Part shown: piece by piece, positions 7,435 through 34,339 of the stretch
How the letters are laid out: every line of letters begins with the position of its first letter
How positions within the stretch are numbered: position 1 is the first letter of the stretch
Assembly (NCBI GenBank): GCA_014860575.1
Contig: JACZJK010000005.1
Location: 124,001-188,000 of the forward strand
DNA from: Bacteroidales bacterium
Lineage (GTDB): Bacteria; Bacteroidota; Bacteroidia; Bacteroidales; JAAYJT01
Length of the DNA stretch: 64,000 nucleotides
Direction of reading: 5' to 3'
Notes under the pieces: model-generated
The model's input: only the letters and a program-made list of their open reading frames with translations
Databases searched by the model: none
What the model was told of the DNA's origin: nothing
Position numbers and translations under genes: made by a program

Positions 7435-8433
7435 TTGAAAAAAATACTCATCATACGTTTCAGTTCCATTGGCGATATCGTGCTCACAACACCTGTAGTG
7501 CGATGTTTGAAAAATCAACTGCCTGGCGTTGAGATTCATTATTGCACCAAAAAGCAATACTCTGATGTTTTAAGCGCCAATCCATATATTGATCACCTTC
7601 ATTACCTCGATGAGAGTGTATCGGATCTTGCCGTGCAGCTCAAAAAAGAAAATTTTGATTTTGTAATTGATCTGCACAACAGCCTACGCTCAAAATTGCT
7701 CAGGTTGAAACTTCATCGCCCTTCCGGCACTTTCAGAAAACTCAACATTGAGAAATGGTTATTGGTTAACTTTAAGATCAACCGCTTGCCCGCATTTCAT
7801 ATTGTGGATCGCTATTTTGAAGCAGCACACGCCCTGAACTTAAAAAATGACAAACAAGGCCTTGATTTTTTTATTCCTGAAGCAGACCAGTTTGACCCTT
7901 CATGGCTGCCAGCCACACATCAGCAATCATTCATTGGTTTTGTGATTGGTGGCAGGCATAACACCAAAATTTTCCCGATTGAGAAAGTTGCCGAAGTTTG
8001 TAATTTGCTTAAGAGTCCGGTGGCGCTGCTTGGAGGAAAGGAAGATGTTGAAAGTGGTGAAACTATTGCCAGGGAATTTCCTCACAAAGTATTCAATGCC
8101 TGCGGGCTATTTTCATTAACCCGCTCAGCAGCTCTTGTGAAACAAGCCGGCCTGATCATCACCAACGACACTGGTTTGATGCATGTTGCGGCAGCGTTCA
8201 ATAAAAAGATAATTTCTCTATGGGGAAATACAGTGCCTGTCTTTGGGATGTACCCTTACCTTCCGCAGGAATCAGAAAATAAGTCAGTAGTTTTTGAAGT
8301 CAAGGGTTTGAAATGCCGCCCATGTAGCAAAATAGGTTTTAAAAAATGCCCTGAAAAACATTTTGATTGTATGAACCGTCTCGATGCAACTAAAATTGCC
8401 GAAACTGCCAACCAGATGATGAACCATTTCTGA
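7435..8433 (+). CDS. glycosyltransferase family 9 (heptosyltransferase-like)
   Basis: GT-B fold transferase of the ADP-heptose:LPS heptosyltransferase family, expected to act on LPS core at the inner membrane. Conserved stretches are KILIIRFSSIGDIVLTTPVV at the N-terminus (the GDxxLxTPxxRxLK motif), FDFVIDLHNSLRSKLL in the middle, and the C-terminal donor-site motif IITNDTGLMHVAAAF followed by ALWGNT-like ISLWGNTVPVFGMYP. The start is set at TTG 7435 (333 residues), on promoter position and family N-terminus; ATG 7342 or 7378 would add 31 or 19 residues. A Cys-rich tail (CRPCSKIGFKKCPEKHFDC) is unusual and could bind metal. Confidence 0.88.
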   Translation: MKKILIIRFSSIGDIVLTTPVVRCLKNQLPGVEIHYCTKKQYSDVLSANPYIDHLHYLDESVSDLAVQLKKENFDFVIDLHNSLRSKLLRLKLHRPSGTFRKLNIEKWLLVNFKINRLPAFHIVDRYFEAAHALNLKNDKQGLDFFIPEADQFDPSWLPATHQQSFIGFVIGGRHNTKIFPIEKVAEVCNLLKSPVALLGGKEDVESGETIAREFPHKVFNACGLFSLTRSAALVKQAGLIITNDTGLMHVAAAFNKKIISLWGNTVPVFGMYPYLPQESENKSVVFEVKGLKCRPCSKIGFKKCPEKHFDCMNRLDATKIAETANQMMNHF

Positions 8434-28618: not shown

Positions 28619-29320
28619 TCAATACGGACCAATGACTTTTGTTACTAAATTGAATGTAAAACCGGAATCATTTATCCAGTCTTTGAACCCGATGTTTTCA
28701 AAGGTAAAACTAATGCTTTCAAATATTTCGCCTCCACTAGCCACAGACTGCTGCACACTTGAGACTTTCCAATTGGAGAGTTTTACTGAGTAATATGGTG
28801 TAGTTTGCCCGGGTGCATACATTTTGAATTCAATACCCCCATTCATCGAACCCGTAATCATCTCTTTGAAAAAGTTCACAGAATTGATGTCCTGAAGCTT
28901 GGAAATGGTCACATCCTGCATATTGGCATTGTTAATAGTGCCAAAATTGGAGCCTCCGTAAGACATAGCGAGCACATTGAAAATACCTGGCCCAAATGAA
29001 TTTGGGCCGAAGAAAGAATAAGTAATTGATTCGGTAGTCGTTCCTGACATTGGACTTGTGCCTGCCAAAGCATTCCAGCTGGCGCCGTTATGAAAGGCAG
29101 GTGATTGGGCGTTTATGTCATAAATCATTAACCCGGCAGAAGGGTTGCTTACGGAAGTGGTATCGTTAACCCTGGGAAGCATGAGACCCTTGTCAGGACT
29201 GGTAAGATCCAGCACAGAATTAGGACTGGGGTTAGTGGTTCCAATACCTACCTGGGCATTCAAATTAATAGTTGTTACAATCAGTAACATCGTCAAAACT
29301 AAAATACTAAATTGTTTCAT
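28619..29320 (-). CDS. secreted fibre-tip/Hcp-like protein
   Basis: 233 residues. The signal peptide ends INLNAQ. Residues 23-90 carry the Bacteroidota surface-fibre module VGIGTTNPSPNSVLDLTS, then DKGLMLPRV, shared with the large protein at 30161. Residues about 95-233 resemble the Hcp/TssD (type VI tube) fold: ITGSMNGGIEFKMYAPGQ, then YYSVKLSNWKVSSVQQSV, SGGEIFESISFTFENIGF. Hcp normally lacks a signal peptide, so this is an exported relative and not a T6SS component; no other T6SS gene is nearby. The assignment to the Hcp fold is by motif memory only. Confidence 0.6.
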   Translation of the reverse strand: MKQFSILVLTMLLIVTTINLNAQVGIGTTNPSPNSVLDLTSPDKGLMLPRVNDTTSVSNPSAGLMIYDINAQSPAFHNGASWNALAGTSPMSGTTTESITYSFFGPNSFGPGIFNVLAMSYGGSNFGTINNANMQDVTISKLQDINSVNFFKEMITGSMNGGIEFKMYAPGQTTPYYSVKLSNWKVSSVQQSVASGGEIFESISFTFENIGFKDWINDSGFTFNLVTKVIGPY

Positions 29321-29503: not shown

Positions 29504-30103
29504 CTACTGCCTGATCACTTTTTCCATATACAGGGTTTCCCCCTGTAGCACACGTACGATATAAATGCCGTTGGGATTGTTGCTTAGATTGAACTGGTAG
29601 CTTCTTTCGCTAAAGAGGGTGGTTTGCTGTATCAACTCACCCATCATGCCGTAAATCTCAACGTTTGCAATTGACGCTTCATCAGTTTCGGGCAGCTCAA
29701 GGAGAAAGAACCCCGTGGTGGGATTTGGATAAACTTTAATACCTGACTCTAATCGCAGGGCGTCATCAAATTTGATTTCAGGTAAGGGATGATCGCTTGC
29801 AGCAACAATGGATTTGGCATTTGTGCAATACATGCCATCAGTATCAATCCAGGCACGGAGGTAGCCGTTGGCTTCAACGAGGATTCCCGGAAGCAACAAT
29901 ACTGACTGCCCTGCAACCAGGTGAATAACTCCGCCGCTCTGAACCAGCAAATCCTGCACAGTTATCGTTTGCAATGCATCTCGCTTCATATCCTGCCCCA
30001 AGGTGTATTTATACTCCTTTGAAAAATCTTTGGTACACTCAAATATTTTCAAAATAAGCTTATGCGTATCTCGGTAAACCGGTAAATCATAGTACAAAGC
30101 CAT
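29504..30103 (-). pseudogene. chimeric ORF: Avd N-terminus fused to a T9SS cargo C-terminus
   Basis: 199-codon ORF in two unrelated parts. Residues 1-44 (MALYYDLPVYRDTHKLILK, then IFECTKDFSKEYKYTLGQDM) match the start of DGR accessory (Avd-like four-helix) proteins, which normally have about 110-125 residues. From residue 45 (LQTITVQDLLVQSGG) it is the coathanger-type stalk plus T9SS sorting domain (IKVYPNPTTGFFLLELPE, ending YMEKVIRQ), paralogous to the tail of the protein at 33182. There is no signal peptide, so the sorting domain cannot be exported; the ORF is most likely a dead fusion left by recombination. The junction shows microhomology (GCATTGCAAAC). It starts 57 bp after the stop of the putative variable protein, exactly where avd sits in intact DGRs. 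Confidence 0.7.
29826..29973. repeat. 148-bp near-identical patch shared with 33504-33651
   Basis: The two stretches differ at about three positions by eye, while flanking coding sequence of the paralogues is only roughly 80% alike. One end of the patch coincides with the Avd fusion junction, suggesting recombination or gene conversion. Confidence 0.8.
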
Positions 30104-30118
30104 AAATTTTCAAAATCA

Positions 30119-30131
30119 ACCGCTACGCGGT
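30119..30131. repeat. small hairpin between the variable protein and the Avd remnant
   Basis: ACCGC-TAC-GCGGT, a 5-bp stem with a 3-nt loop. Many DGRs have a hairpin downstream of the variable repeat that aids homing; this one is in the right place but shorter than usual. Confidence 0.35.
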
Positions 30132-30160
30132 AATATTTAAATAGATAAATGGTTAAATAG

Positions 30161-33136
30161 TTAAAAAGCCCGGACGGCACGGACACGTCTGGTGTTGTCC
30201 TTATAGTAGTAGCCCTGGAAGCCATTGTAGAAATCCTGCCTCCAGGCGTAGTTAGAACTGAACTCAGAAGAACTCCAATAGTAGGTGTCAGTAAAACCGC
30301 TGCCTCCGTTTGCCCCTGCGGCAGCATTAATAGTTGCCTTGTTTTGATACATTATATTTAATTCTTCTTTTGAGGGAAGATACCAGTCGCCATAAGTTTT
30401 ACCTCCTTCGGTAACTTGCAGTTCATTACAAATGCGCGCTGCATAAGTGTTACCATCATCACCAATAGCTACATGAGCTGCAATAATTATTGAGGTATTT
30501 GCTTCGCCCGCATAAGGGCCGTCTCCTTTTGCCTGAGTATTACCATAAGTACCGGCAAACCATATTACCCCTGTACTTTGGTCCTGTTTAGCAGCTACCA
30601 AACCATGCTGTCCGGTTTCGTCTACCCAGAATACGATACCGCCTTGGGCAAAGTCGCCTACGGAGTAGGTGGTAGATGATGAAGATGAACCACCGCCAAC
30701 TCCCTTCCATTTATTAGTAGTTGCATCATAATAATAAAAACCTTTTGCAGTAATATCTGCTGTTTCTGGTGTAGTAGATGCAACACTTATATCATTTACA
30801 AAAATAATTGCACCATCTTGGTCTGCGCCATAAGCAGCCACTTTAGCGTCTAGTTGTGCCAAAGTTAGAGAGGGCACTTGCACACCGTCTGCGGTTGTTG
30901 TACTTGCTGGGTATCCTTCGACTTGTAGGGTGGTCTTAGGTGTTGTGGTACCAATGCCTACATTTCCATTGTCATATATACTGCTATTCGTAGTAAGTGT
31001 TCCGTTTTGCCATTTGGGGAGGTAATTGTTGGTTCCAACATCTACTAGCATATCTCCACTCGTTAATTCCACCGACCAATTATTTAACACGCCCTGATCA
31101 CCACCATATACATCAAACACTTTCAGAATCCACATGCCATTTGGGTTTATGTTACCCCCTCCAATTGCAGAAAAGCTACTAACGTTAGCGACAAAGCCAC
31201 AAACTCCAGGAGACAGGGAGCCAATTGGTAAAAATGTTCCGGTATAAGGAGGTAAACTTGAAGACAAGGGTTCAGCAAAATTGTCACAAAATTGTGTGTT
31301 CACAAGGTTGTCATCACCACCCCCATTATTTTTCATAAGATTAAGTTTATCACCGTTGGGGGCAATTAAATATATTTCCAGATCCGCTACAAATGTGTGA
31401 GTCAGGTTTATGGTAACACAAATATTTTCAGATTGAACAGACTCAGGAAAGCCTGCAACATGAATTGTATCGCTTACTCCATCAGGACAATTGTAATCTA
31501 CTATTGGAGTACCCGGTGCATTGCTTTGAGAAGCTAATTCTTCAATAGAATTTACCATTAATTTTCCCTGACTATCTGCATATATCTGCCTGAAACCTGC
31601 TCCTTCTAAATTTCTAACTCTTGCCTCGCCATTTACATCCAATAGTTCTGTAGGTGCTGCTGTCCCGATACCCACTTTGGTGTCTGAAGTGGCGCCATTC
31701 ACACCATTTATGCTTCCGAGTACTAAACTATTGCTTTGGCTAACCAAGGCATTAGCACCAATGGCAGTAGCGTTAGTTAATGCCCCTGATGCGACGTTTG
31801 CCTGGTAGCCAAGGGCTGTGTTACCCGTTCCTGTGGTATTTGCACCAAGCGCTGCAAAACCAACAGAGGTGTTGTTAGAACCTGAGGTGTTGTTGTAAAA
31901 GGCATCCCTGCCAACTATTACGTTATGTGTTCCGTTGGTTGTATTTATTCCTGCCTGGTGTCCAACTGCAGTATTTGGACCGTTAAGCGCATTTTGAAGC
32001 GCTCCGCCACCAATTGCAGTAATTGCATCTGTTCCGGTTTTGCTCAAAGCTGCCTGATGACCGATCGCAGTGTTCCAGGATCCGGTTGTATTATTCTGGA
32101 GTGCTGCAAAGCCATTGGCCACATTGTTAATTCCGGTGGTGTTTTGGCGAAGTGCATTTACACCATTGGCCACGTTATCATTTCCTGTGGTGTTGGAGAA
32201 GAGTGCAGATCTGCCATTTGCCGTGTTGTTAATTCCAGTAGTGTTGTGGTGGAGTGCCTCTACACCAGTGGCCGTGTTATTAATTCCTGTGGTGTTGTTA
32301 AAGAGTGCGAAAAAACCATTGGCCATGTTATCATTTCCTGTGGTGTTGTTAAAGAGTGCCAAAGAACCATTTGCCGTGTTGTTAATTCCTGTGGTGTTGT
32401 TTTGAAGTGCAGCAAAACCATAGGCCGTATTGGAATTTCCTGTGGAGTTGAAGTAGAGTGAAAATGTTCCACTTGCTGTGTTTTCATATCCTGTAGTATT
32501 ATTGTGAAGTGTAGCATACCCATTGGCCGTGTTGGAATTTCCTGTTTCATTTGAGTAGAGCGATCGAAAACCATTGGCCGTGTTGTTAACTCCTGTGGTG
32601 TTGAAATATAGTGCTTGTGCCCCATTTGCCGTGTTCCAATTTCCGGTGGTGTTGGAATACAGTGCTTGATAACCACTAGCTACATTGCTAGATCCTGCAG
32701 TATTGGAATAAAGTGCTGAAACCCCAAGGGCAAGGTTTTGGTTGTTTGAAAGGTCATCACTTGCTCCGGCGCCATCTCCAAGAAAAACACTGTTGCCACC
32801 TGTTCTCCCATCACTCAGATCATCTATTTTAGTAACCGTATTGCTTGTGCTACCATTTAGATTTATCCAGTCGGTTCCGTTAAAAAAGTAGAAACCATCT
32901 GCTTTATCAGTCTGGTAAACCAAAAGGCCAGTGGCAGGGGTGCTTATGGCTACACGTTGTGTTGAGTCCATCCGTGGGATTAAAAGTCCTTTGTCCGTTG
33001 ATTGAACATCCAGCATGGCCGATGCGGCGGGAGTGGCGGATTCATTGGCTGAGATCACTACACCCTGGGCAAACGACTTGCTTGTGAGAGTTGCGATAAT
33101 AAGTGCGAGCGAAATAATGAATATTATTATTTTCAT
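30161..33136 (-). CDS. secreted repeat fibre with P-domain and C-terminal C-type-lectin/DUF1566 domain, putative DGR target
   Basis: 991 residues. A signal peptide (1-24) precedes a fibre-base module with LDVQSTDKGLLIPRMDSTQR. Residues about 137-482 are 17-residue repeats of the form xxALxxNTTGxNNTANG (13 regular, then about six degenerate). Residues about 542-695 look like a proprotein-convertase P-domain (HTFVADLEIYLIAPNGDKL, GMWILKVFDVYGGDQGVLN). From about 825 comes a DUF1566/formylglycine-type C-lectin fold (GGIVFWVDETGQHGLVAAK, DWYLPSKEELNIMYQNK). The last 40 residues have the DGR target frame YWSSSE...AW.Q.F..G......K....RVRAVRAF, with NNC codons at most presumptive variable positions. 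It has no T9SS tail, so surface attachment is unclear. It is followed by the Avd remnant. Confidence 0.85.
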   Translation of the reverse strand: MKIIIFIISLALIIATLTSKSFAQGVVISANESATPAASAMLDVQSTDKGLLIPRMDSTQRVAISTPATGLLVYQTDKADGFYFFNGTDWINLNGSTSNTVTKIDDLSDGRTGGNSVFLGDGAGASDDLSNNQNLALGVSALYSNTAGSSNVASGYQALYSNTTGNWNTANGAQALYFNTTGVNNTANGFRSLYSNETGNSNTANGYATLHNNTTGYENTASGTFSLYFNSTGNSNTAYGFAALQNNTTGINNTANGSLALFNNTTGNDNMANGFFALFNNTTGINNTATGVEALHHNTTGINNTANGRSALFSNTTGNDNVANGVNALRQNTTGINNVANGFAALQNNTTGSWNTAIGHQAALSKTGTDAITAIGGGALQNALNGPNTAVGHQAGINTTNGTHNVIVGRDAFYNNTSGSNNTSVGFAALGANTTGTGNTALGYQANVASGALTNATAIGANALVSQSNSLVLGSINGVNGATSDTKVGIGTAAPTELLDVNGEARVRNLEGAGFRQIYADSQGKLMVNSIEELASQSNAPGTPIVDYNCPDGVSDTIHVAGFPESVQSENICVTINLTHTFVADLEIYLIAPNGDKLNLMKNNGGGDDNLVNTQFCDNFAEPLSSSLPPYTGTFLPIGSLSPGVCGFVANVSSFSAIGGGNINPNGMWILKVFDVYGGDQGVLNNWSVELTSGDMLVDVGTNNYLPKWQNGTLTTNSSIYDNGNVGIGTTTPKTTLQVEGYPASTTTADGVQVPSLTLAQLDAKVAAYGADQDGAIIFVNDISVASTTPETADITAKGFYYYDATTNKWKGVGGGSSSSSTTYSVGDFAQGGIVFWVDETGQHGLVAAKQDQSTGVIWFAGTYGNTQAKGDGPYAGEANTSIIIAAHVAIGDDGNTYAARICNELQVTEGGKTYGDWYLPSKEELNIMYQNKATINAAAGANGGSGFTDTYYWSSSEFSSNYAWRQDFYNGFQGYYYKDNTRRVRAVRAF
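30168..30283 (-). other. candidate DGR variable repeat (VR)
   Basis: About 116 bp at the 3' end of the fibre gene, from the codons for YYW to a GC-rich end (GTCCGTGCCGTCCGGGC) that would serve as the initiation-of-mutagenic-homing region. Codons at presumed exposed positions are TTC, AAC, TAC, TAC, TTC, GGC, TAC, TAC, GAC, AAC and ACC. All end in C, as expected if they derive from AAC in an adenine-mutagenised template. Invariant positions keep W, E, Q, G, K and the VRAVR tail. No template repeat was found in the window. Confidence 0.65.
32061..32726 (-). repeat. 51-bp coding tandem repeats (about 13 regular units)
   Basis: Words such as CCTGTGGTGTTGTT recur every 51 bp (for example 32286 and 32337) on the plus strand and encode 17-residue units of the fibre protein. 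Long antisense frames here are produced by the repeat and are not genes. Confidence 0.92.
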
Positions 33137-33181: not shown

Positions 33182-34339
33182 TTACTGCCTGATCACTTTT
33201 TCCATATACAGGCTTTCGCCCTGCAGCACACGCACGATATAAATACCGCGGGGCTTATCGCTTAAATTGAATTGGTAACTTCTCTCACCAATCAGTGTTG
33301 TTTGCTGAACAAGTTCGCCCATCATGCCGTAAATTTCTACATTGGCCCTTGAGTCTTCAACGGCCTCGGGTAACTCAAGTGTGAAACTACCGGTGGTAGG
33401 ATTTGGAAATACCCTGATTCCTGCTGAAAGCGGCATTGCTTCCTCAAACTTTATTTCAGGGATGGGCTGGTCGGCTACAGCTATGATGGCTTTGGCGTTC
33501 ATACAATACATGCCATCAGTATCAATCCAGGCACGGAGGTAGCCGTTGGCTTCAACAAGAATTCCCGGAAGCAACAATACTGACTGCCCTGCAACCAGGT
33601 GAATAACTCCGCCGCTCTGAACCAGTAAATCCTGCACAGTTATCGTTTGCACAGCATCAAAGCAGAGTTCCTGACCATTCGTTAAAGTAACATTTTCAAC
33701 CAGCCTGTTTAGTGGCACATCGCTCCAGTGGATGCGGTTAAAGGGATCGTTTTCATAAGCCTCTCCGGCAAAGTTTCCGCTGAAGTTAGTGAAGGTTACC
33801 TCGCCGATGTTCAGGGTTTTGGCTACATTGTATAATTCGTTGCCGGGTGTGGAAATAAATGCCACGCCAGCAATGGTCAGTTCCTGGCTGTTGTTGATGG
33901 TAAGGAATGTGCTGCTCGAGGCTCCGCTTTGGAAAATGCTGTTGTTGAGCGGCAAAGCCGGGTCAATGGTAGCGCCTGACTGGATATTCAATCCATCGCC
34001 ACTCATTTTTTCAAAAGTGGCGTATTCAGCGCCGATGGTTCCGCCGGAGCTGACTATGAACACAAAGTATCCGGCAGAGGTAACGGTAACAGGGTTGCCA
34101 TCTTCGCCCATGAGGGTTAGTTTGCCGCCGTCGTTAACTGTAAGGGTGTTGCCATCGCTGAGTATGAGGGATGAGCCGGATTCGATTTTCAGGTCGCCGT
34201 CATTGTCAATGTCAACGGCTCCATCCACATACATGACTGTTTCACCGGTCATAATCATGTTTGTTCCGATTTTGATGCCCTGGGCAAGGATAATGCCTGG
34301 CAGGCAAATTGCCGTAATGATGAGTAAAAGTGTTTTCAT
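33182..34339 (-). CDS. T9SS-secreted beta-helix-like protein
   Basis: 385 residues. The signal peptide ends GIILAQG. Residues 20-200 are short Gly/Asp-rich strands (DIDNDGDLKIESGSSLILSD, TLTVNDGGKLTLMGEDGN) suggesting a right-handed beta-helix. Residues about 220-290 form the coathanger-type stalk (CFDAVQTITVQDLLVQSGG) also seen in the chimera at 29504 and the giant protein at 48368. Residues about 305-385 are a type A T9SS sorting domain (IRVFPNPTTGSFTLELPEAV, ending YMEKVIRQ). It should cross the outer membrane by T9SS and be anchored or released after tail cleavage. Confidence 0.87.
   Translation of the reverse strand: MKTLLLIITAICLPGIILAQGIKIGTNMIMTGETVMYVDGAVDIDNDGDLKIESGSSLILSDGNTLTVNDGGKLTLMGEDGNPVTVTSAGYFVFIVSSGGTIGAEYATFEKMSGDGLNIQSGATIDPALPLNNSIFQSGASSSTFLTINNSQELTIAGVAFISTPGNELYNVAKTLNIGEVTFTNFSGNFAGEAYENDPFNRIHWSDVPLNRLVENVTLTNGQELCFDAVQTITVQDLLVQSGGVIHLVAGQSVLLLPGILVEANGYLRAWIDTDGMYCMNAKAIIAVADQPIPEIKFEEAMPLSAGIRVFPNPTTGSFTLELPEAVEDSRANVEIYGMMGELVQQTTLIGERSYQFNLSDKPRGIYIVRVLQGESLYMEKVIRQ

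Follow-up and report, generated by a model that had tools for sequence, protein, structure and literature searches.

The 199-aa open reading frame (ORF) on the minus strand at the centre of this study joins the start of an Avd protein, in frame, to the sorting tail of a T9SS cargo protein. The locus lies in the window, the 64,000-nt stretch of DNA analysed here, and is very probably the remnant of a former DGR in which deletion of the core left the avd-T9SS fusion and orphaned the target gene. An earlier note had proposed both the in-frame joining, which is confirmed, and a deletion that orphaned the variable protein. The latter is supported by the Avd identity of the N-terminal part, the signature of the variable repeat (VR), the absence of an RT and a template repeat (TR), and avd stubs formed by deletion in two relatives. 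For the window itself we infer a single deletion, a T9SS gene that lay downstream and a fusion without function.

An avd-T9SS chimera behind a diversified target

The window belongs to a 299,701-base contig (C5) of a 4.4 Mb assembly that is 95% complete. A T9SS cargo gene, a gene for a surface-type protein and the 199-aa ORF follow one another on the minus strand (Table 1). The next gene on that strand, 28619..29320, encodes a T6SS_HCP-like domain (43.5 bits) behind an N-terminus that resembles those of the local surface proteins.

Table 1. Features of the locus, in window coordinates.
Feature	Position	Strand	Description
T9SS cargo gene	33182..34339	-	385 aa; upstream of the target; closest paralogue of the fusion tail
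Putative orphan DGR target	30161..33136	-	991 aa; hydrophobic start, repetitive middle, P-domain, Lcl_C ending in the VR
Variable repeat	30152..30299	-	Stretch aligned to the L178 TR
IMH-like sequence	30160..30172	-	CGGGCTTTTTAAC at the VR end; label by analogy
Inverted repeat	30120..30130	-	Small, GC-rich, CCGCGTAGCGG; between VR and avd start
Chimeric ORF	29504..30103	-	199 aa; Avd residues 1-42/43 and T9SS cargo tail, in frame
avd-derived part	29977..30103	-	avd nt 1-127; 92-94% identity to the avd of L178, L174 and L170
Junction	29967..29980	-	GATGCATTGCAAAC; GATGC and CAA common to avd and T9SS gene
T9SS cargo tail	29504..29975	-	Contains Por_Secre_tail; paralogue of the 33182..34339 tail
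Near-identical tract	29826..29974	-	Adjoins the junction; exact runs of 25, 65 and 53 nt shared with the 33182..34339 gene

The earlier note had suggested searching residues 1-44 against Avd profiles, and two families were matched below threshold: 23S_rRNA_IVP by residues 6-42 (E 1.3e-4, below the family cut-off) and bAvd (PF22296) by residues 13-41 (E 0.003, 18.4 bits versus a cut-off of 40), where the stub resembles the first third of the domain. Both matches fall under the cut-off because the fragment is short; nine of nine aligned Avd relatives matched bAvd, the first at 70.8 bits. Direct comparison upheld the assignment. Residues 1-42 are identical at 41 of 42 positions to the Avd of L178, a Flavobacteriaceae MAG with an intact VR-avd-TR-RT array, and likewise to that of L170, a MAG named Chitinophaga pinensis, and at 40 and 39 of 42 positions to the two nearest Avd copies of genome G014. 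At the DNA level, avd nt 1-127 are 93.7%, 92.9% and 92.1% identical to L178, L174 and L170, respectively. The likeness stops at nt 127, leaving 42-43 of ~113 residues; over the following 60 nt, identity to the L057 reference avd is 20%, and no Avd similarity was found past nt 127 of the fusion. The switch to T9SS sequence announced in the earlier note is therefore real, while its position after 44 residues has to be moved to codon 42-43. The Avd fold is a four-helix bundle, and the ORF holds neither a complete avd nor the whole bundle. Among solved structures 2gsc alone was matched, weakly (E 0.0052). With the G014 Avd as query, 15 phage records were returned, every one below 60% identity, and no plasmid was matched; nor did the 8-kb region have a near match among phages that would speak for a phage origin.

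The target gene ends in an Lcl_C domain, which we take to be C-type-lectin-like (47 bits, residues 851-989 of 991), and this C-terminal domain holds the VR. The VR differs from the L178 TR at 30 of 61 adenines and 15 of 87 other bases (P=5e-5); the TRs compared are the relatives' own rather than the lost TR of the window, and part of the mismatch is therefore ordinary divergence. Mismatches were enriched at template adenines (Fisher P <0.05) in 16 of 18 comparisons, the others being L114 (P=0.05) and L172 (P=0.2); these comparisons, in sets of 10 and 8, cover 17 distinct TRs, L169 being the same locus as L113. This adenine signature bears out the view that the gene before the fusion encodes a DGR variable protein. 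At the position of CGGGCTTTTTAAC the relatives' TRs have GGTTTTAAAC or GATTTTAAAC. The non-coding flank before avd, with an inverted repeat CCGCG(T/A)AGCGG, is kept in relatives, and intact ones carry CCGCGAAGCGG in place of CCGCGTAGCGG. In the window this hairpin downstream of the VR has a stem of ~5 bp and a loop of 3 nt.

The highest 11-aa hydropathy mean within the first 30 residues of the fusion is 0.61, whereas the two neighbouring genes reach 2.87 and 3.49. By this measure of the first 30 residues the ORF has no signal-peptide-like start, in agreement with the earlier note. The fusion thus carries the C-terminal sorting domain of a T9SS cargo (PF18962) but not the start of one, and because of this the domain, as predicted from hydropathy, cannot serve export.

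No DGR core was found in the genome

An Avd alignment was used to scan genome contigs; of the 305 relatives confirmed, 80 loci were kept. An RT lies within 3 kb downstream of avd (<=3 kb) in 70 of the 80, a VR/TR pair with adenine-type differences was likewise present in 70, and the order VR-avd-TR-RT was found in 60 by script criteria, the remainder including short contigs and other arrangements. The order of target, avd, TR and RT that the earlier note gave for intact DGRs is thus the one seen in 60 of 80 loci. Contig C250 of G014 (L057) is a worked example, with a target, a 113-aa Avd, a TR and a 400-aa RT. At L170 (4995-5342) a full-length Avd follows a VR-type target, and no RT or TR was found in the 5 kb downstream; this arrangement suggests another case of core loss, at a different point than in the window.

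A search of the window's own genome with the RT of an intact relative matched no DGR-type RT, and VR-region DNA matched only itself beyond 34 nt, giving no template repeat; both absences are read from an assembly that is 95% complete, of which a piece may be unassembled. The locus therefore lacks three marks of an active DGR: a DGR-type RT, a TR matching the VR and a complete avd. A core elsewhere in the genome was ruled out by the RT and VR searches. In two genomes of the same genus, neither an Avd match nor a match to the locus marker was found that would reveal an intact allele of the site.

RVT_1 has only two matches in this genome, side by side on contig C58 (L028 11480-14907). These RT-like genes, of 685 and 457 aa, lie near helicase-like, restriction-like and 23S_rRNA_IVP genes. 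As a DGR core the pair was ruled out by its context, the helicase-like and restriction-like neighbours having been labelled by eye; from its gene content the region looks like a defence island.

Avd stubs in other genomes

Stub searches with two Avd types, in draws of 393 genomes (order) and 395 genomes (class), returned intact, disrupted and truncated avd copies. Many of the truncated copies lie directly behind a VR-type target end with the inverted repeat still present, and their breakpoints differ. We compared the post-break DNA of 19 stubs with 74 RT ends. Past avd codon 60, the stub of G368 aligns from 23 nt before the L120 RT stop through the 3' flank (score 244, shuffled maximum 38), and that of G380 aligns from 1 nt before the L235 RT stop (score 119, shuffled maximum 42). 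Both lack the whole stretch between mid-avd and the RT end. Since an avd stub is here joined to an RT 3' end in two relatives, these alignments show that core deletion can produce avd stubs. For G048 a match was found to DNA that follows an RT in the same genome (score 205), but 92 nt off the break, and G522 gave a weak match (56 versus a shuffled maximum of 35); among the 19 stubs compared, nothing convincing was seen beyond these four.

Three stubs read through in frame (G084, G773 and G610, with open frames of 175, 128 and 230 aa), and the G084 sequence after the break looks like a lipoprotein start. No T9SS tail was seen among the first 115-140 residues of the other stubs.

Some stub loci are more complex. 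In L063 (7294-9254), from G042, a genome without a close DGR RT, two tandem targets are each followed by an avd stub, with breaks at nt 37 and 85. In L275 (2330-2570 and 3365-3709), from G412, a copy of the first part of avd and, downstream of it, an intact avd and RT share one contig; the partial copy is 96% identical over 98 nt, and an apparent toxin-antitoxin pair, judged by eye, lies between the copies. Small inverted-repeat elements are inserted in avd at L112 (~8145-8193; G214) and L275 (~2428-2570; G412), at a near-identical site (avd nt 95-98, around codons 31-33).

Loci of this kind bear on an alternative in which the target, the hairpin and the first part of avd are a dispersed, coreless copy that arose by duplication or transfer and landed before or inside a T9SS gene. 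The tandem targets of G042 with stubs of different length favour it, as do an RT that G192 retains downstream of its stub and the partial avd ahead of an intact avd and RT in G412. We nevertheless regard dispersal as improbable. An RT search in 11 stub genomes gave no match in seven, weak matches in two (G042 and G222; ~30% identity, E 7.5e-8 and 3.5e-7) and clearer ones in two (G192 and G361). With the RT missing from most stub genomes tested, most stubs have no active core to serve, and G368 and G380 are core deletions in place.

The junction and the T9SS tail

The fusion tail matches Por_Secre_tail (PF18962) at 53.5 bits, versus a cut-off of 27, and its protein is 79% identical to the tail of 33182..34339. 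Past the ~150-nt near-identical tract, 30-38 of 48 positions per block are identical between the two genes, with 45 of 48 in the last full block. The tract suggests, from its sequence, that the two T9SS genes underwent conversion or that the joint was templated.

The sequence at the junction is GATGCCTTACAAC in the avd of relatives, GATGCATTGCAAAC in the fusion and GATGCTGTGCAAAC in the T9SS paralogue, with GATGC and a CAA in all three. The microhomology invoked in the earlier note holds for these short shared motifs; GCATTGCAAAC is proper to the fusion and does not represent 11 nt of identity between the parents. The DNA after the junction scored 36 against RT 3' ends, versus a shuffled maximum of 30. 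As this is not convincing homology, the deletion at the window is one that we infer and do not read directly.

An artefact of assembly, in which the avd-T9SS join would not be real in the cell, is very improbable. The genome holds 83 matches to the fusion protein, nearly all on its tail, and the exact 65- and 53-nt runs between the two tails could confuse a short-k assembler. However, the avd/T9SS homology at the join, ~5 nt, is too short to mislead an assembler, the join lies inside the 299,701-base contig, and the only switch that sits in a long repeat is within the tail, ~150 nt further on.

By parsimony, the fusion-tail branch carries 7 synonymous and 13 non-synonymous changes and the upstream-gene branch 13 and 6, both being small numbers. 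Fusion tail and upstream gene differ with an overall dN/dS of 0.15, which on its own would look like purifying selection; this value also takes in the period that preceded the fusion, and possible conversion. We read the fusion as a non-functional scar because it has no signal-peptide-like start and its tail has gained more non-synonymous changes than the paralogue. That it is a working gene, such as a cytosolic partner of the target, is hardly credible despite its 199 open codons and the low overall dN/dS of its tail, given a T9SS domain useless for export, the loss of all but about one third of Avd, the lack of a T9SS tail in the examined residues of other stubs and a branch richer in non-synonymous changes than that of the paralogue (13 versus 6).

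On contig C43 of the same genome, two T9SS genes directly flank a gene whose 305-aa product has a similar C-terminal end. The 305-aa protein (L071 9653-10570) has a VR-type end, VRCIKD, and lies between two paralogues of the fusion tail; by its sequence it is possibly another former DGR target. This row of T9SS, lectin-type and T9SS genes makes a T9SS gene behind a target plausible.

Under core deletion, the ancestral locus would have comprised a target with its VR, the hairpin, avd, TR and RT, followed by a T9SS cargo gene. A deletion reaching from avd codon 42-43 into the T9SS gene, with its ends joined at the short shared GATGC..CAA, would have taken the last two thirds of avd, the TR, the RT and the start of the T9SS gene, and so probably ran beyond the RT into its neighbour. 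The near-identical tract beside the junction would need an extra event, whether conversion or a templated joint. The orphaned target would retain a VR that shows past diversification and could no longer be rewritten by an element of its own genome. The chimeric ORF, with neither an export signal nor a complete Avd fold, would be open by chance and is probably drifting.

Comparison with known systems

DGR loss with orphan targets is already known from Treponema denticola, and the present locus is a degraded DGR with an unusually legible scar. In the parts of that study drawn on here, target genes persist in isolates that lack RT and TR, their orphan VRs differing from other isolates' TRs mostly at adenines, and the authors regard these targets as what remains of core DGRs since lost (Nimkulrat et al. 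2016, PMC4891356). The window differs in that its break lies inside avd and is fused to another gene; no such fusion or stub appears in those parts of PMC4891356, and the term avd has 0 occurrences in its text. The Bordetella phage BPP-1 DGR has the same order of VR, small hairpin and avd as the window, according to the sections consulted of Guo et al. 2011 (PMC3240598), and its hairpin downstream of the VR is needed for efficient homing. Unlike BPP-1, the window has lost TR, RT and two thirds of avd, and its ~5-bp stem and 3-nt loop are smaller than the 7-10-bp stems and 4-nt loops of the phage set in those sections. A description of avd stubs was not found in the open PubMed Central texts searched, including the portions used of PMC8867640, PMC8144416, PMC3240598 and PMC4891356.

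The locus shows, at base resolution, how a DGR comes to its end, with a diversified surface protein frozen and the deletion joint readable. Avd stubs behind VRs would be an easy genomic marker of DGR loss, so that gains and losses of DGRs become countable across species.

Breakpoint positions and palindromes

The avd breaks fall at nt 98-131, a range picked after looking at the data, in 13 of the 16 stubs measured. Their distribution departs from uniform over 95-340 (KS P=1.7e-7; binomial 5e-8, computed for at least 12 of 16), although stubs shorter than ~95 nt are hard to detect, so a plain excess of short stubs could mimic clustering. The G048 position rests on an assumed start. Omitted from the set were G361 and G658 (internal indels); G609 and G412 (degenerate or inserted); G428 (start missing at a contig end, break near codon 56); G214, G359, G174, G063, G090, G006 and the C249 copy of G192 (disrupted rather than truncated); G577; G671 and G335 (fragments without an Avd start); weak full-length or partial IVP-type matches; and both stubs of G042 (nt 37 and 85), identified in a separate search. 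It is a tentative and rather doubtful idea that avd stubs are not random, with the stretch from the VR to codons 33-44 kept as a cis element or transferable target cassette, or with a preferred breakpoint. If upheld, clustering at a preferred avd breakpoint would point to a recurrent route by which DGR cores are shed.

Palindromes of ~130-150 nt, starting (C)CAACGAAACGCTAAC / CCAACGAAACGCTAAC, are found at 5 of the 73 distinct RT ends (L114, L118, L120, L190 and L235), 3-6 nt past the RT stop. Those with CCAACGAAACGCTAAC also occur past the break at 3 of the 19 stub loci (L102, L105 and L111), against a background of 0.003 per 250 nt. They presumably resemble integron attC sites. Against an integron origin, no more than 2 of the 18 genomes, G331 (which contains L118) and G084, have an integron integrase scoring above the cut-off. 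Variants of the palindromes are present in L276 and L278.
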